From Henckelia pumila (lineage: Eukaryota > Streptophyta > Magnoliopsida > Lamiales > Gesneriaceae): a stretch of DNA of 64,000 nt. Location: positions 131,286,375 through 131,350,374 of the forward strand of contig NC_133121.1 of NCBI RefSeq assembly GCF_033568475.1, read 5' to 3'. The position numbers and the translations under genes are program-made. Below, one piece after another: positions 5,567 to 59,193 of this stretch (position 1 is the stretch's first letter; each line of letters starts with the position of its first letter). The notes beneath the pieces were generated by a model that searched no databases, was not told the origin of the DNA, and was given only the letters and a program-made list of their open reading frames with translations.

Positions 5567-6779
5567 TTCATGAGATTCTCTTTGCATTTTCTACTTTTGC
5601 ACGGGGAAGAATTCATTGGATTTTCGATTTCATGATGTGTTTTGTGTTGAGAGTCGTGAGATAAGTTGCTATTTGATTTCCTTGTATAAATTCAAACATT
5701 GTTTATCTTGTACTTGTACATCTTTTGTTTGAAATGCAATTTTGTTGTATCAAGTTAATTTGACATCTCCCATTTTGGTGGCTTCGGCTATGCTAATCCA
5801 GAGTAAAGCTTTCGCCAATTTATTTGCATGACACGTGTCCAATTATTTGCAGACTACTGCAGTTTGATTTGCAAATATTTTTTCCGTAGATATACGTACC
5901 GCATATTCAATGTACATAATAATGGGAAAGAAATCGGACTTTGGTGCATTTTCTTTCTCATGCACATATATATTATTATTTATTAGATTATACTACAGTC
6001 TACATGTATACATAAAACTATACATTGAATTTGCTTTTATATATATGATTATTTTTAATGTATTTTTAAAATAAAATAGATGAATAATTTTATAATTTCA
6101 AATGTTACGTGTAACCTCCGTTTACATGTAACATTTTAAATAGCAAAATTTTTTGTGAGATTGTCTCTTGAATTAATTTTTTGTAATATATCTTTTATTT
6201 TATCTTGTGATGTCTAAGAAAAAGTACTATATATTTTTTTAAAAATTTCAAAAATATTATTCTTCATTATACGTCGACTTGATCCAATTTACAAACATAT
6301 AAAATACGTGCAAATACATTTAAGAACTTGTCACCTACTGCATTTAAATTACTTGATTGTAATTGTATTCTAGAAAAAAATTTCTTAAATTCCACCTACA
6401 ATCTTATTTTTTTCGTCCATACACATCCATGGTAAATTTAATTATGACAAAGTAGTAGAAAATTGCTTTCGAAATCTATGATGTATTGACATCTAGTGTA
6501 TTTAAATTACTCGATCGTTTGTATATCAAGTTCTTAAATTCCACATATACACACACACACGTATTATTATGTATATACCTACAATCTTATTATTATTTTT
6601 TCCATACAAGTATCTATGTTAAAATTAATTAGAAATTAAATTTGGAAAAATTGAAAAACGAAATTAAAAATTTTTTTTCGGATTTTTAAACTGTATTTTC
6701 TTACAAACAATTTTTTAAATGAAATTAAGGTGTTTTTTTTTTTTAAAAAATAATAATAATAAATTAAAATTGAAACACT
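5567..6779. other. Intergenic, AT-rich
   Basis: The start holds the 3' UTR of the NPC gene. A piece at about 5619-5745 also appears in the pseudogene near 28137-28900. The rest is AT-rich, with homopolymer runs and a short CA/TA run near 6545. I see no gene, RNA or clear mobile element. Confidence 0.6.
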
Positions 6780-6887
6780 TTAAAAGTAAACCCTCTCTCT
6801 CCCCCAACCCAATTCCCGTTTAATTTCACCCTCCATTCCCTTCTTCTCCATTTTACCCATGATTCCCTTCTTCTCCACTATGGCCGA
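6780..6887 (+). pseudogene. Leader and first codons of a host membrane-protein gene, cut by an LTR
   Basis: A pyrimidine-rich leader precedes ATG at 6880-6882, followed by GCCGA at 6883-6887, where the LTR starts. The complete gene copies in array B begin ATGGCCRAGAAAG. Directly after the LTR the sequence resumes GCCGAGAAAG. GCCGA is therefore a 5-bp target duplication and the LTR interrupts this gene at its second and third codons. The leader is not found in array B, so this is the only place in the window that shows the gene's own 5' end. Confidence 0.75.
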
Positions 6888-7542
6888 TGATGCCCCTAAA
6901 AAATATACGAGTCTAATTCGATCCGAGCTCAATAATTCATATTTTTGAAAATATACTTTGAGACTCATCTAGTTTTATTTTATGAGAAGCCCAGTCTGGG
7001 ATGACCCTGTTAGAAAATGGGCTCATGATTATAAATTCATGGAGTTGAGCTCTATCTGGTATGGTTGGAGCATGACCCGAGCCCAGGAAGGGCCCAATAT
7101 CTAGAACCTTCCAGTACTCTCGGACACATGAAGATCTGCAATAGATAAGGACAATATCTTATGAATCTAAGATTTGATATTATTTCAGACTCATCAATTA
7201 GAGTCCTACTCTAACACATGTTCTACCTTGACAAGGTAATCTACCCCTCCATTCCCCTATAAATACAGGTATGGTTCATGATTTATTCATTCATCTCTTC
7301 TATTTACTTCTTGTTCACTTACTCACACACGCATATTTTCTTGTTCTTACTTTCTGTCAAGCTCTTTCATTTTTCGAGCACTAACTTAGGCATCGGAGGG
7401 GTCACACTGAAAACACCTTCGACGCCCCCTAACTCAGCTTTTGTCTGTGCAATGCACGTGAAGCCTGACCCGACCCGCTTTGTGGAGGATTTGGAGATTC
7501 GTTCCACCAGACCGAACCCGGAGGAAAAAATCGACATCCTCA
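6888..7542 (+). mobile_element. LTR 1 of array A
   Basis: This 655-bp LTR begins TGATGCCCC and ends ACATCCTCA, flanked on both sides by GCCGA. A TATAAATA box lies at 7258-7265. The following stretch with CTTAGGCATCGGAGGGGTCAC resembles U5 regions of plant Ty3-Gypsy LTRs, so the element is read on the plus strand. It is the most diverged of the four LTRs, with several C-to-T type differences from LTR 2. Confidence 0.8.
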
Positions 7543-8195
7543 GCCGAGAAAGCGACTGGAGTCATCCCAGCTTTACTTCGCTTTGGTTTGGATTTACGAT
7601 ACCGTGACACAGTCAAACTGAAGGTTAAGATAAAAGTTTTTTTTAAAAAAAAAATTTATTTTAGGGTTTGTTCGTTTGTTTTTTTTTCATTTCATTTCTA
7701 ACACCACATTTCTTTTTGAAGGTTTTAAGATCTCTAGCGATTTTAAAGATGATGTGCGTCGTTGGGGGGTTTTTTTGGGCACAAAATATCGGTGAAAAAT
7801 TACTTTATTTTAGTGGGAGCCTTCTCCATCTACAAGGGCATCCGCCGCGTCCCGAACGACCAACGGTTGAAAGTGGTTGCACTATCAATATGTTGTTTCT
7901 TTCAGTGTATGTTATTTTGCAATCTGGTTCCAGATGCTATGACAATAGCCATGAGCTCTCTGTTCCCACCTGTGGGAGAGCTTTCCCAGCTCTCCCAACT
8001 TGTGGGAGGAACTCCCCATTTGCAGTTCTTGATTCAAGATAAGTAAGTTAGTGGGTTTTTTTATTGTTTTTTTTTCCTTTTTCTTTTTATTTTTCTCGTT
8101 ACTATTTTTTTTTTGAAAATAAAAAAAATCAAGATTCATCATCAGCTCACTGATCGGGGCATTTCTCCACTCTTCGTGCATTTGGAAGCAAACAG
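7543..8195 (+). pseudogene. Host membrane-protein gene copy A1
   Basis: Exon 1 (7543-7623) encodes AEKATGVIPALLRFGLDLRY and onward to VKLKVK. It is followed by a GTTAAG donor, a T-rich intron, an acceptor at 7720-7721, exon 2 (7722-8042), a GTAAGT donor, and exon 3 from 8134. Homology stops near 8195 at WKQT. Exon 2 has segments like ILKMMCVVGG, AFSIYKGIRRVPNDQ, LSICCFFQCMLF and PLFPPVGELSQLS, suggesting about four membrane helices with exon 3. The ATG is cut off by LTR 1, and a T-run in exon 2 breaks the frame. Function unknown. Kept introns show it was copied as DNA, not through spliced RNA. It lies just downstream of an LTR promoter in the same orientation. Confidence 0.7.
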
Positions 8196-9130
8196 TAATA
8201 TTTTCCTATTTTATTTTGTGGAATCTCTCGAACCTCTTCTTCACACGCATGGAACCCTTGGTCCCGAGCCATATTTTGAGGAGAATATGTTGAAAGTCTC
8301 CCCAGATGATCACTCATTCCTCCTCCCGATCCATTTCTTCCTTCTCGCTCCCAATTACACTTCTTCACGTCCCTCTCCCTTTTTTGTTTTTTGGCTTCCT
8401 CCATGTTGATGTACTTCTCATCCCGAGCCAATAGATCTTCAAAATCAGACCAAGGATTTAAAGAATTCCCCTCTTTGAGTCCCTGAGTAAAAGCAATGAC
8501 CTTGTTTTCTTTGGCACAAGATGGTACTTTTAGAGCCACTTTATTGAACTTCTTTATGTATGCCCTCAAGAACTCCTCTCCAGATTATTTTACTTCAAAC
8601 ATGCTGAATGTGGTCTTCTTATACCGCCTGTTGCTACTAAAATATTTCAAAAAAACCCTCTGAAATTTAGCCAATGATCGGATGCTACCGAACATCAATT
8701 TATTGAACCACTTCTGGGCCGAATCCACTAAGGTGGTTAAGAAAACCTTACATTTGATTCAATTTTCAAACAATGTAACATGGCTATATTTTTTTTTAAC
8801 ATAGCCAAGTGCTCTTCTATATCTGTGCTACCATCATATTCCCTGATTTTGGAAAACTTGTAACAGGCGGGCAAGGACTCTTTGACCACCTCTGGCGAAA
8901 AATGGCAACTGGGACCTTGGCTCGCGAAGATTCCCGCAAGCCTGTCTCCTTTAGCTTATGTATCTTCAGTCGTAATTCCTTTAACTCCTCCGCTACAGTA
9001 ACATATATAGATTTTGCATGTGAACCCTCATCTTCATCTTCAGGATGTGAACCACCCTGAACCTCCTCCTCCCGCTGCGTCTCCTTTTCCTTCTCCTTTT
9101 CTTTCTTCTGATTCTGCTCATGTTGTCGTG
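8196..9130 (-). mobile_element. Antisense gag fossil, unit A1
   Basis: The minus strand carries Ty3-Gypsy gag (retrotransposon gag family) sequence: an acidic and lysine-rich N-terminal part with coiled-coil character, and a C-terminal part with LRAYIKKFNKVAL-like and LLARDEKYINMEEA-like segments. It is broken in several places. It is opposite in orientation to the LTRs that bound it. Confidence 0.7.
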
Positions 9131-9420
9131 CAACCCACGCCACTCGAGGTTATCTCAAAAGCCAGACCAGCTCGGCAATATGTAAACCCACACCACTCGT
9201 GGTTATCTCAAAAGCCCGACCAGTTAGGCAATATGTAAACCCATGCCACTCGTGGTTATCTCAAAATCCCGACCAGCTCGAAAATATGTAAACCCACACC
9301 ACTCGTGGTTATCTCAAAATCTCGACCAAGCTCGACACCTACCACGCACTTCGTCGTCAAATTCAATGCCTAACCAGCTCGGCACCTACCACGCCACTCG
9401 TGGCCTCCATCAAAAACCCA
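9131..9420 (+). repeat. 53-bp minisatellite, unit A1
   Basis: CACTCG recurs at 9141, 9194, 9247 and 9300, a 53-bp period. Each unit carries CCACTCGTGGTTATCTCAAA and GCCCGACCAGCTCGG-like parts, and the core CCACTCGTGG is an inverted repeat. The array sits between gag and the purine tract, as tandem repeats often do near the 3' end of large Ty3-Gypsy elements. Confidence 0.75.
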
Positions 9421-9542
9421 TCCGGTTGGGAAATGTTACTTGTACTTGGTTAATACAAGAGTTCTTACATGAGCTCGGGATCCGACTAGACCACATGGTC
9501 TAAACTTTGTACTTCTTTTAGACCAGTAGGGGGAGGTACTAT

Positions 9543-10197
9543 TGATGTCCCTAAAAAATATACGAGTCTAATCTGACCCGAGCCCAATAATCCATATTTT
9601 TGAAAATATTCTTTGAGGCTCATCTAGTCTTATTTTATGAGAAGCCCAGTCTGGGATGACCCTGTTAGGAAATGGGATCATAATTATAAATTCATGGGCT
9701 TGAGCCCTAACTGGTATCGTTGGAGCCCGACCCGAGCCCAGGAAGGGCCCAATATCTAGAACCCTCCAGTACTCTCGGACACATGAAGATCTGCAATAGA
9801 TAAGGACAATATCTTAAGAATCCAAGATTTGATATGATTTCAGACTCATCAATTAGAGTCCTACTATAACACATGTTCTACCTTTGACAAGGTAATCTAC
9901 CCTCCAATCGCCTATAAATACAGGTATGGTTCATGGTTTATTCATTCATCTCTTCTATTCACTTCTTGTTCACATACTCACACACGCATATTCTCTTGTT
10001 CTTACTTTCTGTCAAGCTCTTTCATTTTTCGAGCACTGACTTAGGCATCGGAGGGGTCACGCCAAAAACACCTTCGGCGCCCCCTAACTCAGCTTTTGTC
10101 TGTGCAGTGCACGTGAAGCCCGACCCGACCCGCTTTGTGGAGGATTTGGAGATTCGTTCTACCAGACCGAACCCGGAGAAAAAAATCGACATCATCA
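9543..10197 (+). mobile_element. LTR 2 of array A
   Basis: This 655-bp copy is preceded by the purine tract AGTAGGGGGAGGTACTAT, as expected for a 3' LTR, and followed by GCCGAGAAAG of the host gene. A TATAAATA box is at 9913-9920. Confidence 0.8.
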
Positions 10198-10849
10198 GCC
10201 GAGAAAGCAACTGGAGTCGTCCCAGCTTTACTTCGCTTTGGTTTGGATTTACGGTACCGTGACACAGTCAAACTGAAGGTTAAGATAAAAGTTTTTTTAA
10301 AAAAAAAATTATTTTAGGGTTTGTTTTTTTTTTTTTCGTTACATTTCTAACACCACATTTCTTTTTGAAGGTTTTAAGATATCTAGCGATTTTAAAGATG
10401 ATGTGCGTCGTTGGGGGTTTTTTGGGCACAAAATATCGGTGAACAAGTACTTTATTATAGCTGGAGTTTCAGTTGCCTTCTCCATATACAAGGGCATCCG
10501 CCGCGTCCCGAACGACCAACTGTTGAAAGTGGTTGCATATCAATATGTTGTTTCTTTCAGTGTATGCTATTTTGCAGTGTGTTTCCATATGCTATGACAA
10601 TAGCCACGAGCCCTCTGTTTCCACCTGTGGGAGAGCTTTCCCAGCTCTCCCATCTCGTGGGAGGAAATTTTCATTTCCAGTTCTTGATTCAAGATGAGTA
10701 AGTTAGTGGGTTTTTTTATTGTTTTTTTTTCCTTTTTCTTTTTATTTTTCCCGTTACTAATTTTTTTTTTAAAATAAAAAAAATCAAGATTCATATCAGC
10801 TCACTGATCGGGGCATTTCTCCACTCTTCATGCATTTGGAAGCAAACAG
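10198..10849 (+). pseudogene. Host membrane-protein gene copy A2
   Basis: The structure matches copy A1: exon 1 from codon 2, a T-rich intron, exon 2 from about 10376, a GTAAGT donor after CAAGATGA, and exon 3 to about 10849. Exon 2 shows GHKISVNKYFIIAGV followed by VAFSIYKGIRRVPND, with frame breaks and one altered stretch (VVAYQYVV where other copies have VVALSICC). It is not translatable as one protein. No function can be assigned. Confidence 0.65.
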
Positions 10850-11780
10850 TAGTATATTCCTGTTTTCTTTTGCGGAATCTCTCGAACCTCTTCTTCACAC
10901 GCATGGACCCCTTAGTCCCGAGCCATATTTTGAGGAGAATATGTTGAAAGTCTCCCCAGATGATCACCCATTCCTCCTCCCGATCCATTTCTTCCTTCTC
11001 GCTCCCAATTACACTTCTTCCTGTCCCTCTCCTTTTTTTGTTTTTTGGCTTCCTCCATGTTGATGTACTTCTCATCCCGAGCCAATAGATCTTCAAAATC
11101 AGACCAAGGATTTAAAGAATTCCCCTCTTTGAGTCCCTGAGTAAAAGCAGTGACCTTGTTTTCTTTTGCACAAGATGGTACTTTTAGAGCCACTTTATTG
11201 AACTTCTTTATGTATGCCCTCAAGAACTCCTCTCAAGATTATTTTACTTCAAACAGGCTGAATGTGGTCTTCTTATACCGCTTGTTGCTACTGAAATATT
11301 TCAAAAAAACTCTCTGAAATTCAGCCAATGATCGGATGCTACCGAACATCAATTTGTTGAACCACCTCTGGGCCGAATCCACTAAGGTGGTTAAGAAGAC
11401 CTTACATTTGATTTGATTTTCAAACAATGCAACATGGCTATATTTTTTCTTTAGCATAGCCAAGTGCTCTTCTAAATCTGTGCTACCATCATATTCCCTG
11501 ATTTTGGAAAACTTGTAATGGGCGGGCAAGGGCTCTTTGACCACCTCTGGCGAAAAATGGCAAATGGGACCTTGGCTCGCAAAGATTCCTGCAAGCCTGT
11601 CTCCTTCAGCATATGTATCTTCAGTCGTAATTCCTTTAACTCCTCCGCTACAGTAACATATATAGATTATGCATGTGAATCCTCCTCTTCATCTTCAGCA
11701 TGTGAACCACCCTGAACCTCCTCCTACCGCTGCGTCTCCTTCTCCTTTTCTTTCTTCTGATTCAGCTCATGTTGTCGTGC
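10850..11780 (-). mobile_element. Antisense gag fossil, unit A2
   Basis: This is the clearest gag copy. The minus strand shows KIREYDGSTDLEEHLA, CKVFLTTLVDSAQRWFNKL and SIRSLAEFQRVFLKYF, which are hallmarks of the plant Ty3-Gypsy gag core. It is broken, with a handful of interruptions over its length, and no pol follows. Confidence 0.75.
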
Positions 11781-12010
11781 AACCCACGCCACTCGTGCTT
11801 ATCTCAAAATCCCGACCAGCTCGGCAATATGTAAACCCATGCCACTCGTGGTTATCTCAAAAGCCCGACCAGTTCGGCAATATGTAAACCCATGCCATTC
11901 GTGGTTATCTCAAAATCTCGACCAAGCTCGATACCTACCACGCATTCGTGGTCAAATTCAATGCCCAATCAGCTCGGCACCTAACACGCCACTCGTGGCC
12001 TCCATCAAAA
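11781..12010 (+). repeat. 53-bp minisatellite, unit A2
   Basis: The same repeat as at 9131-9420, with fewer copies. Confidence 0.7.
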
Positions 12011-12138
12011 ACCTTTCCGTTTGGAAAATGTTACTTGTACTTGGTTAATACAAGAGTTTTTACATGGGCTCAGGATCCGACTAGACCACATGGTCTAAAC
12101 CTTCATACTTTTTTTAGACCAGTAGGGGGAGGTACTAT

Positions 12139-12792
12139 TGATGCCCCTAAAAAATATACGAGTCTAATCCGACCCGAGCCCAATAATCCATATTTTTGAA
12201 AATATACTTTGAGGCCAATCTAGTCTTATTTTATGAGAAGCCAGTCTGGGATGACCCTGTTAGGAGATGGACTCATGATTATAAATTCATGGGTTTGAGC
12301 CCTAACTGGTATGGTTGGAGCCCGACCCGAGCCCAGGAAGGGCCCAATATCTAGAACTTTCCAGTATTCTCGGACACATGAAGATCTGCAATAGATAAGG
12401 ACAATATCTTATGAATCTAAGATTTGATATGATTTCAGACTCATCAATTAGAGTCCTACTCTAACACATGTTCTACCTTGACAAGGTAATCTACCCCTCC
12501 AATCCCCTTTAAATACAGGTATGGTTCATGGTTTATTCATTCATCTCTTCTATTCACTTATTGTTCACATAATCACACACGCATATTCACTAGTTCTTAC
12601 TTTCTGTCAAGCTATTTCACTTTTCGAGCACTGACTTAGGCATCGGAGGGGTCACGCCGAAAACACCTTCAACGCCCCGTAACTCAGCTTTTGTTTGTGC
12701 AGTACACGTGAAGATCGACCCGACCCGCTTTATGGAGGATTTGGAGATTCTTTCTACCAGACCGAACCCGGAGGAAAAAATCGACATCATCA
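12139..12792 (+). mobile_element. LTR 3 of array A
   Basis: This 654-bp copy has the same purine tract on its left and the host-gene sequence GCCGAGAAAG on its right. Confidence 0.8.
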
Positions 12793-13451
12793 GCCGAGAA
12801 AGCGACTGGAGTCGTCCCAGCTTTACTTCGCTTTGGTTTGGATTTACGGTACCGTGACACAGTCAAACTGAAGGTTAAGATAAAAGTTTTTTTTTTATAA
12901 AAAAATTATTTTAGGGTTTGTTTGTTTGTTTTTTTTCGTTTCATTTCTAACACCACATTTCTTTTTGAAGGTTTTAAGATCTCTAGCGATTTTAAAGATG
13001 ATATGCGTCTTTGGGGTTTTTTTTTGGGCACAAAATATCGGTGAACAATTACTTTATTTTAGTGGGAGTTTTAGTTGCCTTCTCCATCTAAAAAGGCATT
13101 CGCCGCGTCCCGAACGACCAATTGTTGAAAGTTGTTGCACTATCAATATGTTGTTTCTTTCAGTGTATGCTATTTTGCAGTCTGGTTCCAGATGTTATGA
13201 CAATAGCCATGAGCCCTCTGTTCCCACCTGTGGGAGAGCTTTCCCAGTTTCTTATCTCGTGGGAGAACTCCTCAATTCTAGTTCTTGATTCAAGATGAGT
13301 AATTTAGTGGGTTTTTTTATTGTTTTTTTTCCTTTTTCTTTTCATTTTTCCCGTTACTATTTTTTTTTTTGAAAATAAAAAAAATCAAGATTCATCATCA
13401 GCTCACTGATCGGGGCATTTCTCCACTCTTCATGCATTTGGAAGCAAACAG
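12793..13451 (+). pseudogene. Host membrane-protein gene copy A3
   Basis: This copy has the same three-exon layout in the same orientation. The stretch around 13088 reads CTAAAAAGGCATTCG where other copies have CTACAAGGGCATCCG, and exon 2 is frame-broken in the T-run. It is decayed like A1 and A2. Confidence 0.65.
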
Positions 13452-14380
13452 TAGTATTTTCCTGTTTTCTTTTACTGAATCTCTCGAACTCTTCTTCACA
13501 CGCATGGACCCCTTGGTCCCGAGCCATCTTTTGAGGAGAATATGTTGAAAGTATCCCCAGATGATCACTCATTCCTCCTCCCGATCCATTTCTTCCTTCT
13601 CGCTCCCAATTACACTTCTTCCTTTCCCTCTCCTTTTTTTGTTTTTTGGATTCCTCCATGTTGATGTACTTCTCATCCCGAGCCAATAGATCTTCAAAAT
13701 TAGACCAAGGATTTAAAGAATTCCCCTATTTGAGTCCCTGAGTAAAAGCAGTGACCTTGTTTTCTTTGGCACAAGATGGTACTTTTAGAGCCACTTTATT
13801 GAACTTCTTTATGTATGCCCTCAAGAACTCCTCTCCAGATTATTTTACTTCAAACAGGCTAAATGTGGTCTTCTTATACCGCTTGTTGCTACTGAAATAT
13901 TTCAAAAAACCCCTCTAAAAATTCAGCCAATGATCGGATGCTACCGAACATCAATTTGTTGAACCACCTCTGGGCCGAATCCACTAAGGTGGTTAAGAAG
14001 ACCTTACATTTGATTCGATTTTCAAACAATGCAACATGGCTATATATTTTTTTAACATAGCCAAGTGCTCTTCTAGATCTGTGCTACCATCATATTCCCT
14101 AATTTTAGAAAACTTGTAATGGACGGGCAAGGGCTCTTTGACCACCTCTGGCGAAAAATGGCAACTGGGACCTTGGCTCGCGAAGATTCCCACAAGCCTG
14201 TCTCCTCCAGCTTATGTATCTTCAATCGTAATTCCTTTAACTCCTTCGCTACAGTAACATATATAGATTCTGCATGTGAACCCTCCTCTTCATCTTCAGG
14301 ATGTGAACCACCCTGAACCTTCTCCTCCCGCTGCGTCTCCTTCTCCTTTTCATTCTTCTAATTCTGCTCATGTTGTCGTG
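13452..14380 (-). mobile_element. Antisense gag fossil, unit A3
   Basis: This is a third copy of the same gag segment, colinear with units A1 and A2 and likewise broken. Confidence 0.7.
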
Positions 14381-14610
14381 CAACCCATGCCACTCGTGGT
14401 TATCAAAAAAGCCCGACCAGCTCGGCAATATGTAAACTCACACCACTCGTGGTTATCTTAAAAGACCGACCAGCTCGAGAATATATAAACACATGCCACT
14501 CGTGGTTATCTCAAAATCTCGACCAAGCACGACACCTACCACGCACTTCGTGGTCAAATTCAAAGCCCAACTAGCTCGGCACCTACCACGCCACTCGTGG
14601 CCTCCATCAA
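14381..14610 (+). repeat. 53-bp minisatellite, unit A3
   Basis: The same repeat as at 9131-9420, with fewer and more worn copies. Confidence 0.7.
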
Positions 14611-14739
14611 CAACCCATCCGGTTGGGAAATGTTACTTGTACTTGGTTAATACAAGAGTTCTTACATGGTCTCGGGATCAGACTAGACCACATGGTCTAA
14701 ACTTCATACTTCTTTTTGACCAGTAGGGGGAGTTACTAT

Positions 14740-15394
14740 TGATGCCCCTAAAAAATATACGAGTCTAATCCGACCCGAGCCCAATAATCAATATTTTTGG
14801 AAATATACTTTGAGGCTCATCTAGTCTTATTTTATGAGAAGCCCAGTCTGGGATGGAACTGTTAGGAAATGGGCTCATGATTATAAATTCATGGGCTTGA
14901 GCCCTAACTGGTATGGTTGGAGCCCGACCCGAGCCCATGAAGTTCCCAATATCTAGAACCTTTTAGTACTCTCGGACACATGAAGATCTGCAATAGGTAA
15001 GGACAATATCTTATGAATCCAAGATTTGATATGATTTCAAACTCATCAATTAGAGTCCTACTCTAACATATGTTCTACCTTGACAAGGTAATCTACCCCT
15101 CCAATCCCCTATAAATACAGGTATGGTTCATTGTTTATTCATTCATATCTTATATTCAATTCTTGTTCACATACTCACACATGTATATTCTTCTGTTCTT
15201 ACTTTCTGTCAGGCTCTTTCACTTTTTGAGCACTGACTTAGGCATCGGAGGGGTCACGCCGAAAAGACCTTCGGCGCCCCCTAACTCAGCTTTTGTCTGT
15301 GCAGTGCACGTGAAGCCCGACCCGACCCGCTTTGTGGAGGATTTGGAGATTCGTTCTACCTGACCGAACCCGGAGGAAAAAATCAACATCATCA
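14740..15394 (+). mobile_element. LTR 4 of array A
   Basis: This 655-bp copy has the same flanks as LTRs 2 and 3 and heads the last, truncated unit. Confidence 0.8.
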
Positions 15395-16054
15395 GCCGAG
15401 AAAGCGACTGGAGTCGTCCCAGCTTTACTTCGCTTTGGTTTGGATTTACGGTACCGTGACACAGTAAAACTGAAGGTTAAGATAAAAGTTTTTTTTAAAA
15501 AAATTATTTTAGGGTTTGTTTGTTTGTTTGTTTTTTCGTTTCATTTCTAACACCACATTTCTTTTTGAAGGTTTTAAGATCTCTAGCGATTTTAAAGATG
15601 ATGTGCGTCGTTGGGGGGTTTTTTTGGGCACAAAATTTCGGTGAACAATTACTTTATTTTTGTGGGAGTTTCAGTTGCCTTCTCCATCTACAAGGGCATC
15701 CGCCGCGTCCCGAACGACCAACTGTTGAAAGTGGTTGCACTATCAATATGTTGTTTCTTTCAGTGTATGCTATTTTGCAACATGGTTCCAGAAGCTATGA
15801 CAATAGCCATGAGCCCTCTGTTCCCACCTGTGGGAGAGCTTTCCCAGCTCTCCCATCTCGTGGGAGGAACTCCTCATTTGCAGTTCTTGATTCAAGATGA
15901 GTAAGTTAGTGGGTTTTTTTTATTATTTTTTTCCATTTTCTTTTTATTTTTCCCGTTACTATTTTTTTTTTTTGAAAATAAAAAAAATCAAGATGCATCA
16001 TCAGCTCATTGATCGGGGCATTTCTCCACTCTTCATGCATTTGTAAGCAAACAT
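15395..16054 (+). pseudogene. Host membrane-protein gene copy A4
   Basis: This is the best preserved of the A copies. Exon 2 keeps GHKISVNNYFIFVGV, AFSIYKGIRRVPNDQ and ALSICCFFQCMLFC through GELSQLSHLVGGTPH, apart from the T-run shift at its start. Exon 3 changes the Trp codon seen in other copies (CATTTGGAAGC reads CATTTGTAAGC here). After 16054 the antisense gag fossil begins. Confidence 0.65.
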
Positions 16055-16254
16055 TAATATTTTCCTGTTTTCTTTTGCGGAATCTCTCGAACCTCTTCTT
16101 CACACGCATGGACCCCTTGGTCCCGAGCCATCTTTTGAGGAGAATATGTTGAAAGTCTCCCCAGATGATCACTCATTCCTCCTCCCGATCCATTTCTTCC
16201 TTCTCGCTCCCAATTACACTTCTTCCTGTCCCTCTCCCTTTTTTGTTTCTTGGC
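16055..16254 (-). mobile_element. Antisense gag fossil, truncated, unit A4
   Basis: Only the C-terminal end of the gag segment is present. It stops at about 16250, where the sequence switches to array B within a shared CTTGGC-like motif. Confidence 0.65.
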
Positions 16255-16284
16255 TGTTATAAGTGAGTTTTACTACAAGGATAT

Positions 16285-18955
16285 TGTAACACCCGGTATT
16301 TTTAATTACATAAATCCGCCTGCATAATTAGGATATTTAATTATTTAAATTTATGATTTATGGGTTAAATAATTATGTGAATTATTTATGCATGATTTAA
16401 TTTATTTTTAAGCATTTAACCCATAATTAGTGAATTTTATGATTTTTAGTATTTTTATTATTTAATCGCGTAGACGGGACTGTGGACGGACGAGATGACA
16501 ACTTTTTAGCCAAATTATTTTATGAGCCTTTTTAGAGTCTTAAAATATTATTTTGAGTTTTATTACCCCAAAATTTTAAGTATTTAATTTTTAGTTAATT
16601 TTAGGGGTCATTTTTATCCAAAATTAGTCAAAATATTGACTTTTTAGTATTTTTAAAATTCCCCTAAAATTATATTTCGAGATTTTTAATTAGGTTATCA
16701 GATTTTTTTTAGAGTTTAAGTTGTTTATTATTTAGTTTTAAAACCTCTTTATTTAATTAGTTAGCTTATATTTTAATTAAACCAAAAATTTAACCTATTC
16801 TACCCAAAACCCTAAGCTAGCCGACCTCCTTTTCTCTCCCACTCAGCCGTCACCCTCCATACTTCTTCTTCATCATCGGCCACCACCATCCTAGGAGTTT
16901 TAGCCGTGAACTTTCTAGCTCGAGGTCCTCCGGTCGTTGTCCCGTCGTCCCGAAGCCCGTCGTACACGTTTCAAACTCTACAAACCCGTATTAAGGCATG
17001 TTTCTTTCTATCTTTCACATCTATATCAGTGCATGTATGAGTGCGAGAGCTTATCATCAGAACATGAGATTTTTTGACAGCAAGTTCGATTTTTCCATCT
17101 TTTATGCTTTCGATTTTTTTTTTGACTTGTTTGATTCATGCTCCCGTTTTTGGCTATCCATGGCTGGGACGGCTGCTGGCTAAGGTTCTACGGGGTCCCT
17201 AGGTGGTCTAGGTGAGTCGGCCATGGTTGGTTTGGGGGCTAGGAACCAAGGCCGAAGCTTTTTCAGAAAAAGGGTTCAGCAGGTACGCAGATTAGGGTTC
17301 TTGGAAGGTGGCTTCGTGTTCGGTGGTTAGGCAGCATGGGGTGCGAACCATGGTATGGTTCGGTCCGGCAGAACCCTGGGGAGGTACTGCCGGCGGGGCT
17401 CCGGCCACGGTGGCCGGAGCTAGGCTGCAGCAGGCCGGGATGGCCTGCTGCTCACGCAGCCGAGGCGGCCGAGAGGGAGGAAGAAAATAGGGTTCGGGTC
17501 TAGGGTTTTAGGTGGATCCGGGTCGGGTCAAGTGGTCCGGGTCGGGTCTAAAATAATGTGGGTCAAGTTAAGTGGGTCCGGGTCCGGGTTATGTTAATTG
17601 GGCTCGGGTATTTTTATTTTTAAGTTTTTAAGTTAATTAGGAGTTAAATGGACTAATTAAATTCCCAAAAATTTAATTAGTACTATTTAATTTATTTGGG
17701 CTCCATTAAATTATTTTGGGTTAAGTTAACTATTTTTGGGCTTTTAATAATTTTATTTAAATTTTTTTTTTAGTTGGCCAGAAATTTTTATGGGCTTGGG
17801 AGCCCATGAAAGTTATTGGGCCTGTTAATGGGCTTTTGGGCCCATTGGGTCAGGGACAGTGTTATTGGGCCTAAGTTAGTCTTAATGGGCTTTGGTTGAT
17901 TTATGGGCCAAGTCTTAAGTTAATGGGCTTGAGTGTAGGGCCAGCAGTCCAGAACCATCCATGAGAAAATTGCATGTGTCCTGATTATATATTTAATTAT
18001 TTTTATGCATTTAAGTTATTTTAATATTTATATGTTAGTAAGAAAATTAAATTAAATATATATGAAGGACACACAATTTATTTAAGTACATGCATTCACG
18101 AAATCAATTTTTATGCTATGATTTAATTTCTATGGTTGAGCAAATAAAATATTTTAGGTGGAAATTGAAGTAGTGTGGCCATTTATGGGCAGTTTTCTGC
18201 CATTTATGTATGGGCAGTTTCTGCCATTTATGTATGGGTGGTTCGCCACCAGCCTCGTACGATGGTTTTTTAGACTGATCAGTCGCACTATAAGTATGGG
18301 TCACACTTACGGATAGGACCATACGATGTTCAGAAAACAAATGCTCAACAACTTATGTATGTATGATATTATGTATGTTTATTTATGAAATTTATGTTAT
18401 TAATTTTTAAGCATGCTCATTCATGTATACGTATGTATTAGTAGTAAATTGATTTAAATTATTTTAAACCCTTGTTAGTATGCATGTTGGGCCTCTAGGC
18501 TCACTACACTGATATGGTGCAGGTGAGTACGTAGAGGAGCAGGTTACTCCTACCGGTGGTGAGGATCTATGAGCTGTGCTGCAGTAGCCCCGTGACCGTG
18601 ACAGCTTCTGAGTCACCGTGCATGATGTCATGTGAAACATTTTATTATATTTTTAGTGGTTGAGTTTTATGGAAATATTTTATTAAATGTTTTAGTGCAT
18701 GCACATATTTTAATTATTTTATTTATGCAGTATGTTTTTAATTCTAGGGTTGACTCAGATGTTTATTTATTTTAAAGAATGCATTTTTCTTAAGTATTTA
18801 ACTGTTTATTTATTTAGTCATGTATTTATTTTAAATATTTTATCTTGTGCATATATGTATGGGCATATATGTACATATTTTATTTAGTCGTAAAAAAAAA
18901 AAAAAAAAAAAAAAATTTCCGCATATTTATTTATTATAGAGTTAGGGTCGTTTCA
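16285..18955 (+). mobile_element. Solo LTR (Ty3-Gypsy, perhaps Tekay/Del type)
   Basis: The 2671-bp block begins TGTAACACCC and ends GGGTCGTTTCA, with GATAT at 16280-16284 and again at 18956-18960 as a 5-bp target duplication. No gag, pol or second LTR is visible, so a solo LTR left by LTR-LTR recombination is the simplest reading. It has GC-rich patches near 17150-17600, short repeats around 18180-18240 (TTTATGGGCAGTTTYTGCCA) and an A-run near 18895. The lineage is a guess from length and style. The clean target duplication suggests a fairly recent fossil. Confidence 0.75.
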
Positions 18956-18960
18956 GATAT

Positions 18961-19570
18961 AGTTTCTCTTTTCTTTCTTTTTTTGTCCTTGGGACATTAG
19001 AAATTGAGAATATAGAATTTTACCCTCATTTGTGTTTTTTGGAGTACTGAATCTTGGTGTTTAATTTTTTTATTATTCAAAATTCAAGTTAATTGGGCTA
19101 TCGTTCAAGTTTTCTGATAACCTCACTCGCGCTCTACACTGGCAAGTAAGCATCATCTCTTTGACTTGCATTTGGTTTGTTATCTGGACTATCGACGAAC
19201 CGATGCTCATGGATGTAAGTCAGTAGAGATCGCCATGGGGCGGGACGGCGGCGGGGATGCCTTTCTCATCCCCGTCCTCGAATTCGAACTGCATCCCCAT
19301 AGTCTCCCCGATCCCAATAATTTCTTATCGAAAATTATCCATTCTCATTCCCGCGGGGACAAAGTCCCTATCCCCGTACCCATAACATAAAATATATAAA
19401 TATTATAAATAGATTTTATTATAAAATATTTTTATATATATATGATATTAGTAAATTTTATTATATAATAATATAAAATTATTATTCAATTTTATGATAA
19501 AATACCTAAAATATTTTGGTCAAATTTTTTATTATAATATTAACTTTTAAAATTAATAAAAATATATTAG
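18961..19570 (+). repeat. Array B spacer with GGGGCGGG-type repeat
   Basis: The spacer carries a conserved stretch near 19140-19215 (GCAAGTAAGCATCATCTC, then TTGCATTTGGTTTGT and a GATGTAAG) that could be remnants of further exons. A GC-rich repeat (ATGGGGCGGGACGGCGGCGG ... CCCCGTACCCATAA) and an AT-rich tail reach the gene start at 19571. The GC-rich repeat recurs near 20568, 21924 and 23236 in the other units, and resembles a dispersed plant repeat of the GGGGCGGG/CCCCGTACCC type. Confidence 0.55.
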
Positions 19571-20330
19571 ATGGCCAAGAAAGTGACTAAAATCGTCCCA
19601 ACTATACTTCGTGTTGGTTTTGACTTTTGGTTTCGTAACAACGTCAAACTCAATGTTAAGTTAATTTTTTTATTTTTTTTGAGGTTTTTTTACCATTTCA
19701 TTCCTAACAAATTTTTTTAAGTGTAAAGATCTCTAGTGATGCTAAACATGATGTGCGTATTTGGTGGGTTTCTTGGACTAAAATTATCGATGAACAAATA
19801 TTTTATTTTCGTGGGAGTTTTTGGTGCTTTCCTCATCTACAAGTCTATCGGTCGCATCCCAAATGACCAGTGGGGGAAAGTGGCAGCATTGTCTATCAGT
19901 TGTTTCTTCCAGTGGATGTGGTTTGGGACTTTCATTCCAGATGGAATGGTTATGACCCCTCTGCTCCCACTTGTCGCAGAGCTCTTCCATCTCGTGGGAG
20001 GACTCTCTGATCTTGTTCCTCAACTCCACTTACTCCAAGATAAGTAAGTTACAAGTTTTCTTTTCATCTTTTTCTCGTTACTATTTTCTTTTAAAATCAA
20101 GATTAATGATCTGTGCACTAATCGAGGCATTGTTGTGCTCTTCATTCATATGGAGTGTTAACGAGTGGGAATGACTGCCACTAGAAATGCAATCGACTCA
20201 CTATTGTATGGTGGTGACAATGATATGGACGATTGTTTATGCAAGCATTTTTGGAGTACAATTCATGTCTTGGCAGCTATAAGTGAGTTTTACTACAAGG
20301 ATATAGTCTCTCTTTTCTTCCTTTTTTTTC
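19571..20330 (+). pseudogene. Host membrane-protein gene copy B1
   Basis: ATG at 19571 opens exon 1 (to 19654, MAKKVTKIVPTILRVGFDFW and on). Exon 2, from about 19728 to 20043, has MMCVFGGFLG, KYFIFVGVFGAFLIYKSIGR, QWGKVAALSISCFFQWMWFG and LPLVAELFHLVGG. Exon 3 starts at 20102 (LMICALIEALLCSSFIWSVN). It ends early at NEWE-stop, where copies B2 and B3 read on into WLPLEMQSTH. Hydrophobicity suggests three or four membrane helices. I do not recognise the family. This is the best preserved copy in the window, but the intron 1 acceptor region and the exon 3 stop argue against an intact product. The alternative frame TATRNAIDSLLYGGDNDMDD is also open at the 3' end. Confidence 0.6.
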
Positions 20331-20920
20331 CTTGCGACATGAGAAATTGAGTATTTTTACCCTCATTTGTGTTTTTTGGAGTACTGAATCTTGGTGTTTA
20401 AATTTTTTATTATTCAATATTCAATTTAATTGGGCTATCATTCAAGTTTTCTGAGAACCTCACCCGTGTTCTACACTAGCAAGTGAACATCATTTCTTTG
20501 ACTTGCATTTGGTTTTTTGTTTGGACTATCGACGGACCAATGTTCATGGATGTAAGTCAGTAGAGATCGCAATGGGGCGGGACGGCGGCGGGGATATCTT
20601 TCTCATCCCCGTCTTCGAATTTAAAATCCATCCCCATAGCCGCCGCCCCGATCCCAATAATTTCTTATCGAAAATTATTCATTCTCATTCCCGCGGGGAC
20701 AAAGTCCCCATCCCCGTACCCATAGCTTTATATATATATATATATATATATTATAAATAGATTTTATTATAACATATATATATATATATATGATATTAGT
20801 AAATTTTATTATATAATAATATAAAATTATTATTCAATTTTATGATAAAAATACCTAAAATATTTTTGTCAAATTTTTTATTATAATATTAACTTTTAAA
20901 ATTAATAAAGTTATATTAAA

Positions 20921-21650
20921 TGGCCGAAAAAGTGACTAAAATCGTTCCAACTGTACTTCGCGTTGGTTTTGACTTTTGGTCCACAACAGCGTCAAACTCA
21001 AGGTTAAGTTAATTTTTTTTGAAGTTTTTTTGAGGTTTTTTTACCATTTCATTCCTAACAAAATTTTTTTTTGAAGTGTTAAGATCTCTAGTGATGCTAA
21101 ACATGATGTGCGTGTTTGGTGGGTTTTGTTGAACAAAAAATATCCATGAACATATATTTCATTTTGGTGAGAGTTTTTGGTGCTTTCCTCATCTACAAGT
21201 CTATCGATCGCATCCCAAATGACCAGTGGGGAAATGTGGCAGCATTGTTTATCAGTTGTTTCTTCCAGTGGATGTAGCTTTGGACTTTCATTCTAGATGG
21301 AATGGTTACGACCCCTCTGCTCCCACTTTTTGGAGATTTCTTCCATCTCGTGGGAGGATTCTCTGATCTTGTTCCTCAACTCCACTTACTCAAAGATGAG
21401 TAAGTTACTAGTTTTCTTTTCCTTTTTTTTCTCGTTACTATTTTTTTAAAATCAAGATTCATGATCTGTGCACTAATCGAGGCATTGTTGTGCTCTTCAT
21501 GCATATGAAATGTTAACGAGTGGGAATGGCTGCCACTAGAAATGCAATCGACTCACTATTGTATGGTGGTGGCAATGATATGGGCGATTGTTTCTGCATG
21601 CATTTTTGGAGAACAATTCATGTCTTGACTGCTATATGGAGTTTTACTAC
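20921..21650 (+). pseudogene. Host membrane-protein gene copy B2
   Basis: ATGGCCGAAAAAG at 20921 starts the copy. Exon 1 has a short deletion (TGGTCCACAACAGC against TGGTTCCGTAACAGC in B3). Exon 2 carries an in-frame stop where B1 has the Trp-Phe-Gly of FFQWMWFG. The exon 3 region near 21459 reads on through NEWEWLPLEMQSTHYC and a hydrophobic tail to a stop after GEQFMS, giving the best view of the original C terminus. Confidence 0.6.
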
Positions 21651-22263
21651 AAGGATATTGTCTCTCTTTTTTATTCTTTTTTTCCTTGGGACATGAGAAA
21701 TTGAGAATGTAGCATTTTACCCTCATTTGTGTTTTTTGTACAACTGAATCTTTGTGTTTAAAGTTTTTATTATTCAATATTCAAGTTAATGGTTATCGTT
21801 CAAATTTTCTGATAACCTCACTCATGTTCTACACTAGCAAGTAAGCATCATCTCTTTGACTTGCATTTGGTTTGTTATTTGGACTATTGATGGACCGATG
21901 TTCAAGGATTTAAGTCAGTAGAGATCGCAATGGGGCGGAACGGCGGCAGGGATGTCTTTCTCATTCCCGTTCTCGAATTCGAACTCCATCCCCATAGCCT
22001 TCCCGATCCCAATAATTTATTATCAAAAATTATCCATTCTCATTCCCTTGGGGACAAAATCCCCATCCCCGTACCCATAACTTAAAAAATATATAAATTA
22101 TAAATAGATTTTATTATAAAATATTTATATATATATTTGATATTAGTAAATTTTATTATATAATAATATAAAAATTATTCAATTTTATGATAAAATACCT
22201 AAAATATTTTGGTCAATTTTTTTATTATAATATTAACTTTTAAAATTAATAAAAATATATTAG

Positions 22264-22960
22264 ATGGCCGAGAAAGTGACTAAAATCGTCCCAACTGTAC
22301 TTCATGTTGGTTTTGACTTTTGGTTCCGTAACAGCGTCAAACTCAAGGTTAAGTTAAATTTTTTTTATTTTTTTTGAGGTTTTTTTCCATTTCATTCCTA
22401 ACAAATTTTTTTTTTGAAATGTAGATCACTAGTGATGCTAAACATGATGTGCATGTTTTGTGGGTTTCTTAGACAAAAAATATCCATGAACAAATATTTC
22501 ATTTTGGTGGGAGTTTTTGGTGCTTTCCTCATCTACAGGTCTATCGGTCACATCCCAAATGACCAGTGGTGGAAAGTGGCAGCACTGTCTATCAGTTGTT
22601 TCTTCCAATGGATGTGGTTTGGGACTTTCATTCCAGATGAAATGTTTATGACCCCTCTGCTCCCATTTGTCGGAGAGCTCTTCCATCTCGTAGGATACTC
22701 CAAGATGAGTAAGTTACTAGTTTTTTTTTCCTTCTTTTCTCGTTACTATTTTTTAAAATCAAGATTCATGATATGTGAACTAATCGAGACATTGTTGTTC
22801 TCTTCATGCATATGGAGTGTTAACGAGTGAGAATGGCTGCCACTAAAAATGCAATCGACTCATTATTGTATGGTGGTGACAATGACATGGACGATTGTTT
22901 CTGAATTCATTTTTGGAGGACAATTAATGAATTGGCTGCAATAAGTCAGTTTTACTACAA
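22264..22960 (+). pseudogene. Host membrane-protein gene copy B3
   Basis: ATGGCCGAGAAAG at 22264 gives the best exon 1 (MAEKVTKIVPTVLHVGFDFW). Exon 2 lacks about 34 bp after ELFHLVG that other copies have (GGLSDLVPQLHLLQ), and the intron 1 acceptor is altered. Exon 3 stops at VNE. The copy is decayed but clearly homologous to B1 and B2. Confidence 0.6.
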
Positions 22961-22961
22961 G

Positions 22962-23690
22962 GATATAATCTCTCTTTTATTTTATTTTTTTTCCTTGGGA
23001 AATGAGAAATTGAGAATATAACATTTTATCCTAATTTGTGTTTTTTGGAGTACTGAATCTTGGTGTTTAAATTTTTTATTATTTAATATTCAAGTTAATT
23101 GGGCTATCGTTCAAGTTTTCTGATAACCTAACTCGTATTCTCCACTGGCAAGTGAGCATCATATCTTTGACTTGCATTTGGTTTGTTATTTGCACTATCG
23201 ACGGACCGATGTTCATGGATGTAAGTCAGTAGAGATCGCAATGTGGCGAGACGGTGGTGGTGATGCCTTTCTCATACCCATCCTCGAATTCGAACTCCAT
23301 CTCCATAGCCGCCCCAATCCCAATAATTTCTTATCGGAAATTATTTCCGCGGGGACAAAGTCCCCATCCCCGTACCCATAACTTAAAATATATATTATAA
23401 ATAGATTTTATTATAAAATATATATATATATATATATATAATATTAGTAAATTTTATTATATAATAATATAAAATTTTTATTCAATTTTATGATATAATA
23501 CCTAAAATATTTTGGTCAAATTTTTTATTATAATATTAACTTTTATTATTCAATTTTATGATATTAGTAAATTTTATTATATAATAATATAAAATTATTA
23601 TTCAATTTTATGTTATAATACCTAAAATATTTTGGTCAAATTTTTTTTTATAATATTAACTTTTTAAAATTAATAAAAATATATTAAATA
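22962..23690 (+). repeat. Last array B spacer, no gene copy after it
   Basis: This spacer has the same order as the other array B spacers (T-rich start, GCAAGTGAGCATC, GGGGCGGG-type repeat from about 23236, AT-rich tail) plus an internal duplication of about 130 bp (ATATTAGTAAATTTTATTA at about 23442 and 23562). Homology fades near 23690 and no ATGGCC gene start follows, so this is the right end of the array. Confidence 0.65.
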
Positions 23691-25140: not shown

Positions 25141-25870
25141 GGACTTGGTGAATTTTTTTTATGATCATTATGATTTGATAAAATTTTTATAGTCGATATG
25201 ACTTCTTCTGAAAAAATATTTATAGTCGATGTGACTTTTCCTGAAAATTTTTTTATAGTCACTATGACTTCTTCTGAAAAAAATTTTATAGTCTAGCTCT
25301 ATGAATTATTGGATTATTTATGATCGCTATGACTTTCTTGAATTGTTTATAGTCGCTATGACTTTTTTTGAAAAAAATTTATAGTCACTATGACTTCTTC
25401 TGAAAAAAATTTTATAGTCTCTATGACTTTTTCTGAAAAAATTTTTATAGTCGTTATGAATTTTTCTGAAAATTGTTTTATAGTCTCTATGACTTTTCCT
25501 GAAAATATTTTTATAGTCAATATGACTTTTTCTGAATTTTTTTTTATAGTCGCTATGAATTCTTCTGAAAAAAATTTTATAGTCATTATGACTTTTTTTG
25601 AAATTTTTTTTATAGTCGCTATGACTTTTTTAATTGTTTATAATCGCAACGACACTTTTGAATTGTTTATAATCACTATGACTCTTTCTGAAATTTTTTT
25701 CATAGTCGCTATTACTTTTTGAATTGTTTATAGTCGCTATGACTCTTTCTAAAAAATATTTATAGTCGCTATCACTTCTTCTGCAATTTTTTTATAGTCG
25801 CTATGACTTTCTGAATTATTTATAGTTGGTATGAATTTTTTAAATTGTTTATAGTCGCTATGACTTTTTG
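25141..25870. repeat. 33-bp minisatellite
   Basis: TTTATAGTCGCTATGACTT followed by TTTCTGAAAAAAAT repeats about 20 times. AGTC recurs at 25191, 25224, 25257 and 25290, exactly 33 bp apart. Because 33 is a multiple of three, long frames stay open on both strands (25390-25722 plus, 25356-25586 minus) and give 11-residue repeat peptides. These frames are by-products of the repeat. Later units shorten and vary. Confidence 0.85.
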
Positions 25871-57489: not shown

Positions 57490-59193
57490 TCACCAATGAT
57501 CTCCACAATTACAGGCTCCATCTTTAAATAGATGAAAACGATTTGCATCCCTGACTAATATTTCCCGATGCATGAATCTTGATATATACTTGGTCACAGT
57601 GGGGCAATCCCCACAAACCCGAAGATTTTTCATTACCAGCAAACTAGTACCAGGTTTTGTATGTAATAAGGCGTAAGCTATGGCCAGCCTTTCACTATGT
57701 CCACAAAGCATGTCTAATTTTTAATCCTCCTCCCATCATACAGGACATATTTGACATCAGCAGCATATCCTTCCTTAGCCATCAAAGAAGAGAGATAGTT
57801 CAGTAATTCCATCACTTCTTCGTGTTTTTCAAAGAATCGATCACCAGCTCCAAAATAGTATACCCTATTTTGAACCTCCACCCAACTACATCCCGGATCT
57901 TTTTTGAGTTCTCTGACTTTTAAAGATGTTCTTATCATTTCCACTTGATTCCACTTTCCCAAGGCAGCATAGGCATTTGATGTTAAAACATGATATCCTG
58001 GATTGTCCACATTTAGTTCAATAATGTGGTTAGACACATGTTCGGCCATCTTCATGTCTCCACTTGCTCTGCAAGCACTAAGCAACGCTCCCCATATACT
58101 TGCATCAGGCTGCAATGGCATTGAAACTATGAATTTCTCTGCTTCAATTAATAGGCCAGAGCGTGAAAGAAGATCAACAACACAGGCATAATGTTGAAGC
58201 CCAGGTTCAATATTGTAGTCTTTCTTCATTTGTTCAAAGCAATTTCGCCCTTCTTGCACCAAACCAGAATGGCTACATGCATATATTATGGCAATAAAGA
58301 CGATGTGATCCATATGAATACCAGCTGCCTTCATATTCTCAAAAATTTCAAGAGATCTCCTATCTTCACCATGCATTCCATAAGAAGCTATCATCGTTGT
58401 CCATGAGACCACGGTAGTGTTTGGGAGAGCTTCTTAGAAGCACTTCTCGGCTTTTCCGTTAACAAAAGTTTGAAATTTTGTGAAATTTTGTTAACGACAA
58501 GCTCATAAGTGCTTACTAAAAGCTCTTTCAAACACTACCTACATCTCTTGCTTTCATCTGCTTGAAAACCGGCACTGAATTCCTTAAATTGCCTGTGTTG
58601 GAGTACATTTCAATCAAAGCATTTCCTATTGGAATAATGGACTCAAATCCCAATCTGAAAATGTAACCATGCATCTCCTTCCCTAAAAGTCTTGCAATGA
58701 GAAAGGAAAACAAAGGCACTTAATAACGTTGGTGCATCTGGAAACATTCCTTCCAATCTCATCCGTTTAAGTATGCTAAAACCAAGAATATCATTATCAG
58801 ATTAACCACAAGCAGCGATAATAGAATTCCAAGAAACTTTATCTCGAATTTTCATGTTTTCGAACTGTTTCAATGAATCCTCCAATTCTCCACACTCGGC
58901 ATACGTATCTAAAAGAGCATTACCCACAATCTGAACAGAATCAAAACCTTGTTTTATTATACCACGGTGGAGTTTTTCTGCCAAATTCATATTTATTAAT
59001 TTTGTACAAATAGAAAGAAGTGTCACATATGTGACAGAATCAATTTCACAAATCATCCTCATCCTACTAAAGAGTTTTATTGCTTCCTCATAAATCTGGT
59101 TTTCAACATAACCTTTAATTAGAGAGTTCCATGATACAATATCCGGGCTTTTCATGCTCTCAAACAATTTGCTAGAACCTACCAAATCACCAC
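57490..59193 (-). pseudogene. PPR-DYW gene copy 1, broken
   Basis: This is the colinear duplicate of the PPR gene at 61909. It starts inside a PPR motif (SSKLFESMKSPDIVSWNSLI) and so lacks the N-terminal repeats. It is interrupted by a 127-bp MITE (58413-58539), has frame breaks near 58700-58800, and has a shift near 57715-57745 where copy 2 reads [20 protein letters not shown]. The DYW part has CGDCP where copy 2 has CGDCH, losing a zinc-ligand-type His. It is not expected to be functional. The truncated end meets an AT-rich repeat at 59194. Confidence 0.9.
58413..58539. mobile_element. PIF/Harbinger-like MITE inside PPR copy 1
   Basis: GGTAGTGTTTGGGAGAGC is mirrored by AGCTCTTTCAAACACTACC. 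It is flanked by CAC (58410-58412) and TAC (58540-58542). The uninterrupted duplicate at about 62827 reads GAGACTACATCTC, so a 3-bp site was duplicated on insertion. It is related to elements at 1285 and 29858. Confidence 0.9.

Follow-up and report, generated by a model that had tools for sequence, protein, structure and literature searches.

In plants, solo long terminal repeats (LTRs) are formed by unequal LTR-LTR recombination, which removes the interior of a retrotransposon and leaves one LTR together with the target duplication. For Wukong, a terminal-repeat retrotransposon in miniature (TRIM), a tandem arrangement is reported and unequal crossing over inferred, with target duplications of mostly 5 bp (PMC4528315). 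The Cassandra TRIM is described as forming long tandem arrays, the size of which may change by unequal crossing over (PMC7215508), and unequal LTR recombination to solo LTRs is named in PMC4007544. In Henckelia pumila (Gesneriaceae), a 64,000-nucleotide stretch of contig NC_133121.1 (131,286,375 to 131,350,374, forward strand; hereafter the window, to which positions refer) contains an LTR insertion in the second and third codons of a gene, followed by a tandem array at 6880-16254. The array probably records one insertion into a resident gene cluster, the joining of a foreign gag fragment, an LTR-LTR exchange, a brief expansion and the separate decay of the copies, a sequence of events that we hold with considerable confidence.

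Like Cassandra and Wukong, the array derives from what appears to be a non-autonomous plant LTR element and is arranged in tandem LTR-interior-LTR units. Cassandra and Wukong repeat the interior of the element itself, whereas the interior of the array consists mostly of host exons and a foreign antisense gag, and the primer-binding site is gone. The main text of the Cassandra paper contains neither 'host gene' nor 'flanking gene' (0 occurrences each; PMC7215508). The exchange that yields solo LTRs would be the same as the one proposed here, but in the array its product was afterwards tandemly copied with host sequence. This arrangement is not described in the literature searched (titles and the openings of abstracts), which is no proof that no such description exists.

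Self-comparison of 6880-16254 by BLAST confirmed four LTRs of 654-655 bp, starting at 6888, 9543, 12139 and 14740, with periods of 2655, 2596 and 2601 bp, and the repeat extends to about 16254. The original prediction of four LTR-plus-gene units with periods of 2596-2655 bp is thus correct for the LTRs and their spacing, but the fourth unit is partial. The locus consists of repeating LTR-interior-LTR units with shared LTRs, namely four LTRs, three interiors and the partial fourth. LTR1, LTR3 and LTR4 are 93.6-94.1% identical to LTR2; the LTRs start with TGATG, end with TCA and are followed directly on the 3' side by GCCGAGAAAG in all four units. A full unit contains, in this order, the LTR, exons 1 and 2 and the start of exon 3 of the host gene, an antisense Gag fragment, 53-bp tandem repeats and a polypurine tract. 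About half of each full unit is therefore neither LTR nor gene, being made up of the antisense Gag fragment and the 3' end of a retrotransposon.

Unit 1 comprises LTR1 (6888-7542, plus strand, 655 bp, TATA at 7258), the host gene piece (7543-8185, plus) with the right GCCGA copy, exons 1 and 2, each followed by its intron, and the start of exon 3, the antisense Gag fragment (8186-9131, minus; the boundary at 8185/8186 is approximate), and the 53-bp repeats and polypurine tract of the LTR element's 3' end (9132-9542, plus). Unit 2 has the same parts at 9543-10197 (LTR2, plus, TATA at 9913), 10198-10840 (gene, plus), 10841-11780 (Gag, minus, with the junction to the 53-bp repeats at 11780/11781) and 11781-12138 (repeats and tract, plus). 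In unit 3 they lie at 12139-12792 (LTR3, plus, 654 bp), 12793-13442 (gene, plus), 13443-14381 (Gag, minus) and 14382-14739 (repeats and tract, plus). Units 2 and 3 each contain one 53-bp repeat fewer than unit 1. Unit 4 consists of LTR4 (14740-15394, plus, TATA at 15110), a gene piece (15395-16045, plus) and a truncated antisense Gag fragment (16046-16249, minus; a 97% match to positions 721-921 of the Gag query). It stops at about 16249 within the Gag piece and gives way to the native gene's end (16248-16284, plus), which comprises the final codons, SWLL-stop (16248-16262), and the sequence behind them; 16248-16287 matches 20268-20307 at 92.5%. The motif cttggct is common to the Gag end of unit 4 and the end of the native gene, and the end of unit 4 accordingly resembles a microhomology deletion.

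The insertion site can be read directly. The host ATG (6880-6882, plus strand) and the left copy of GCCGA (6883-6887) precede LTR1, directly 5' of which stands ATGGCCGA. Two paralogs in the window have an uninterrupted start, ATGGCCGAAAAAG (ATG 20920) and ATGGCCGAGAAAG (ATG 22264), and a third (ATG 19571) reads ATGGCCAAGAAAG, one change from the empty site. The uninterrupted start in the paralogs identifies GCCGA as a genuine 5-bp target duplication, as opposed to a piece of longer unrelated sequence, and places the LTR insertion at codons 2-3, as had been predicted. This single target duplication serves the whole array. The native 5' flank, with the putative promoter and 5' untranslated region of the host gene, lies at 6490-6879 (plus). 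Within it, 6490-6770 can be aligned to sequence 5' of the ATG of L054, a paralog before the window (local score 198; the highest of 200 single-base shuffles was 105), and 6592-6728 matches a paralog upstream region by BLAST (71.5%, E 4e-17). This indicates that the promoter side of the native gene has been retained.

Three exons are predicted for the host gene, with boundaries derived from the sequence and the paralogs. Exon 1 continues after the start as AEKATGVVPALLRFGLDLRYRDTVKLK in units 2-4 and with one change in unit 1. The exon 2 donor reads GATGA|GTAAG in units 2 and 4 and in two paralogs of a second tandem array in the window, GATAA|GTAAG in unit 1 and one paralog, GATGA|GTAAT in unit 3, and GATGA|GTATG in the upstream paralogs L055-L057. 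The units keep exon 1, exon 2, both predicted introns, as judged from the paralogs, and exon 3 up to SSCIW (SSCIC in unit 4), after which the antisense gag follows. Exon 2 is shifted in frame at a G/T run in all four units, a site where a homopolymer assembly error is possible, and unit 3 has two additional stops in this exon. Judged by these predicted frames, all four gene copies are broken; what had been called a gene copy in each unit holds exons 1 and 2 and the beginning of exon 3, but is incomplete and interrupted in frame. The gene frame remains open across the final 27 codons of the LTR in every unit, and this LTR portion contains an in-frame ATG in none of the four; the original description gave an open LTR tail for several units and likewise no ATG. 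Between the TATA-like box and the gene, two or three ATGs are found per LTR. The array most likely makes no protein, since every unit lacks an in-frame start in its LTR and has a frameshifted exon 2 and a truncated exon 3.

The gene belongs to a tandem cluster resident at this locus. A search of the genome DNA with two kinds of gene copy, which skips very common words, gave six matches each, all in this cluster. The protein search yielded 25 matches up to E 10, and all 13 with E < 0.01 lie inside the cluster; the remaining 12 (E 0.1-9.3) are located elsewhere in the genome and look like noise. Five further paralogs found by this search lie 12-24 kb before the window at a spacing of 2.3-3 kb. 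Four of them (L054-L057) were compared in sequence; they span contig C2:131262854-131274249 and include at least three in a tandem repeat of about 2.95 kb, L055-L057 being tandem repeats of each other that are 91.6-93.5% alike. Neither the LTR nor the gag has a match in the 11.5 kb of this upstream cluster. The second array in the window (18956-23689) has a period of about 1.35 kb and is the third tandem set at the locus; its three native paralogs (19571-22960, plus strand; ATG 19571, 20920 and 22264), in which the empty insertion site is visible, are about 88% alike. Its 5' flank, with a GC-rich repeat block at about 19230-19380, has no match to the native promoter of the first array. As these paralogs were tandemly duplicated without the LTR of the first array, tandem duplication at this locus does not need that LTR. 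The gene family is accordingly a resident cluster, found nowhere else in the genome searches, of which the LTR array is a side branch of broken copies, and the first proposal, that the LTR carried the family, is not supported. The exon-2 piece of one window paralog matched no Pfam family; among four further copies, two gave sub-threshold Pfam matches (E 0.085 and 0.35) and two none, and a search of solved structures returned three insignificant matches (E 0.36-0.41), all to one receptor.

The LTR family is abundant and dispersed. A genome search gave 1337 first-look candidates, of which the best 40 were scored and ten relatives (L021-L030) were fetched. These relatives share the LTR ends, the 53-bp repeats and the polypurine tract with the array. 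Their target duplications, like that of the array, are 5 bp long and exact in five of the seven relatives readable at both ends (L021, L023, L024, L026 and L028); four of five bases agree in L027, and L022 is not exact. In this comparison the duplications of L025, L029 and L030 were unreadable; reading of the right end of a second copy of L025 gave the exact duplication AAGGC, which makes it the eighth readable locus. Directly 3' of the 5' LTR, TTGGCGCCGT is found in eight of the ten relatives and in variant form in L021 and L026; we take it to be a primer-binding site of the type of the Tat group of Ty3 elements. A slightly varying polypurine tract precedes the 3' LTR in eight of the ten, L029 and L030 being unreadable because the match starts inside the LTR. 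The AG-rich tract also precedes LTR2-4 of the array, but the primer-binding site is absent after the LTR in all four units, and the units lack the element interior. Apart from the LTR, relatives of the element match the units solely in the 53-bp repeats and polypurine tract, the rest being host gene and foreign gag. The interiors of four of the ten relatives (1.9-2.4 kb) have open stretches of at most 129 codons, as assessed by eye. The source family thus looks like a non-autonomous element of about 3 kb with 655-bp LTRs and an apparently non-coding interior. One member lies within a recent 9.9-kb tandem duplication at C3:67.83 Mb (L025, L058 and L059; 98.9-99.8% identity), and this repeat was rejected as a second case of LTR-plus-flank duplication.

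The antisense gag has a separate origin from the LTR element. Retrotrans_gag (PF03732) was matched by each of the three pieces tried, including one of unit 1, with E 0.0033-0.017, below the curated cut-off. The closest gag outside the array is 73% identical among the best 40 of 273 candidates scored. Seven gag loci were fetched from the 40 scored matches, and their 9.9-kb stretches contain neither the LTR nor the 53-bp repeats; in two of them, L042 and L046, a string of the same type as the presumed primer-binding site lies close to the gag. The possibility that the gag is a regular part of the LTR family was rejected, as none of the ten relatives carries it by nucleotide BLAST. Among those listed of 412 matches, the junction between gag and 53-bp repeats is crossed just by the three array units. 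Since no listed match from outside spans it, gag and 53-bp repeats were most likely joined at the array locus. No homology is visible at this inner junction.

The following course of events would account for these observations. An apparently non-autonomous LTR retrotransposon inserted at codons 2-3 of one cluster member, as the target duplication and the empty site show, and the gag fragment of another element, present in the units, would have come by some route to lie antisense in exon 3. The junctions suggest that a non-homologous exchange then joined the gag to the 53-bp repeats of the LTR element and produced a tandem duplication. Since gene sequence, in place of a primer-binding site, follows LTR1, an LTR-LTR exchange probably removed the element interior from the first copy. 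The resulting 2.6-kb unit may then have expanded rapidly, unequal crossing over being the simplest way, until there were at least four units; a deletion would have trimmed the last one, and the copies would since have decayed separately. The original view that the array was amplified by LTR recombination thus holds in that LTR-LTR exchange is the simplest explanation for the contact of LTR1 with the gene; it is not borne out at the inner junction, with its lack of visible homology, or by the paralogs, which were duplicated without this LTR.

The units look like LTR-gene-LTR and the family is abundant, as might be expected if two insertions of the same family, one at codons 2-3 and one behind the gene, had undergone LTR-LTR recombination and thereby duplicated the intervening gene. 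This would predict a family-level difference between LTR1 and the 5' part of LTR2-4, but none of the 25 states private to LTR1 is commoner in the 20 other family LTRs (LTR2, 0 of 12; LTR3, 2 of 20; LTR4, 2 of 26). In a tree of 24 LTRs from 11 loci, in which the L025 pair is a cross-copy pair and not the pair of one element, the array LTRs form one clade (support 0.987). They have in common five states, at LTR positions 128, 354, 366, 433 and 615, that occur in at most one of the 20 other LTRs, and LTR1 has these states too. The single clade, the shared states and the pattern of LTR1-private states argue for one insertion, and two insertions are improbable. Still harder to uphold is a composite retrotransposon that captured the gene and spread by reverse transcription. 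The order between LTRs 1-4 (LTR, gene, polypurine tract, LTR, in one orientation) is that of such an element, yet the primer-binding site is missing after all four LTRs, the introns are kept, the gene is at no other locus in the genome searches and one target duplication serves the entire array. Gene capture was therefore rejected, no dispersed copies having been found, and its probability is almost nil.

In the stretch common to all four units, 159 private substitutions (46, 32, 41 and 40 in units 1-4) stand beside nine two-to-two sites, which are split 3/2/4 over the three possible groupings. These near-star relations point to a short burst. They also fit a one-step amplification, in which an extrachromosomal circle of LTR, gene, gag, 53-bp repeats and polypurine tract was amplified by rolling circle and reinserted at the locus. 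The same pattern would, however, be expected from two unequal crossovers in quick succession, and nothing in the data points to a circle; we regard this as unlikely, if somewhat less so than two insertions. Tandem repeats are generally prone to assembly error, but an artefact that multiplied one unit is hardly credible given the 32-46 private substitutions per unit, the extra 53-bp repeat in unit 1, the different right end of unit 4 and the position of the array within a 201-Mb contig of an 885-Mb genome.

Kimura two-parameter distances over all pairs are 0.057-0.090 for the LTRs and 0.041-0.069 for the gene piece. Between units 1-3 they amount to 0.057-0.076 (LTR), 0.066-0.069 (gene piece), 0.042-0.051 (gag) and 0.067-0.101 (53-bp repeats to polypurine tract), the same order across the parts, as expected if these were copied together. 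The LTRs differ by 0.071 on average, which at 1.3e-8 substitutions per site per year would roughly date the burst to 2.7 million years ago. The LTR pairs of nine dispersed elements are younger (0.022-0.056), but these were drawn from the best matches and are not representative. C-to-T changes are more frequent at CG (22 of 564) and CHG (26 of 574) than at CHH (62 of 2761), as expected of methylated repeats.

Several observations weigh against the course of events proposed above. The order of events after the insertion is one that we infer, no copy of the locus with the LTR element interior was found, and the original right border of the gag fragment is lost. At LTR position 61, LTR1-3 have a state in common from which LTR4 differs, which hints that unit 4 split first and departs from a perfect star. 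Unit 4 holds three of the 33 private changes in exon 1 and later exon 2, yet 26 private LTR states (25, 12 and 20 in LTR1-3), a much changed LTR beside a little changed gene piece. These 33 changes include two stops and 16 synonymous changes, against a mean of 10.3 in permutations (P 0.024, in one of several tests), a weak synonymous excess that would be unexpected for plain pseudogenes.

Between units 1-3 the rate of change in the gene piece is similar to that in the LTR and higher than that in the gag, and we take the exon pattern as no good evidence of function. A role could be conceived in which the LTR promoters drive read-through transcripts of gene piece and antisense gag, making the array a source of small RNAs against the paralogs and gag elements, with partly constrained coding pieces. 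The gag of each of units 1-3 shares six 21-mers with one outside gag locus (L041), but that of unit 4 shares none, nor is any shared with six other loci; the unit-1 gene piece shares two with one paralog of the second array, and the other pairs tried, including the upstream cluster, share none. Such a role appears very doubtful.

Behind the array lies a solo LTR of an unrelated family (16285-18955, plus strand, 2671 bp), flanked by the target duplication GATAT. Over its first 615 bases, 16 of the 39 other copies scored match it at 99-100% identity and the remainder at 92-93%; many of these copies occur in pairs about 7.5 kb apart, and by this measure it is a young insertion. Further downstream, a 33-bp minisatellite of about 22 copies occupies 25176-25869. 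A PPR-DYW gene and a very similar partial copy of its 3' part, recognised by eye from the list of open reading frames, are found on the minus strand at 57714-58412 and 61909-63978.

The array can thus be understood as the product of known processes in an unusually readable form: it would be the outcome of rearrangements that followed the insertion of an LTR into a tandem gene cluster, not a new system. Within 10 kb one can read the site of insertion and its empty counterpart, two foreign junctions, a probable LTR-LTR exchange and a burst that can be dated, a clean record of one retrotransposon insertion being drawn into a tandem repeat. An LTR found in a tandem gene array need not be its amplifier, since the copies next to this array multiplied without this LTR.

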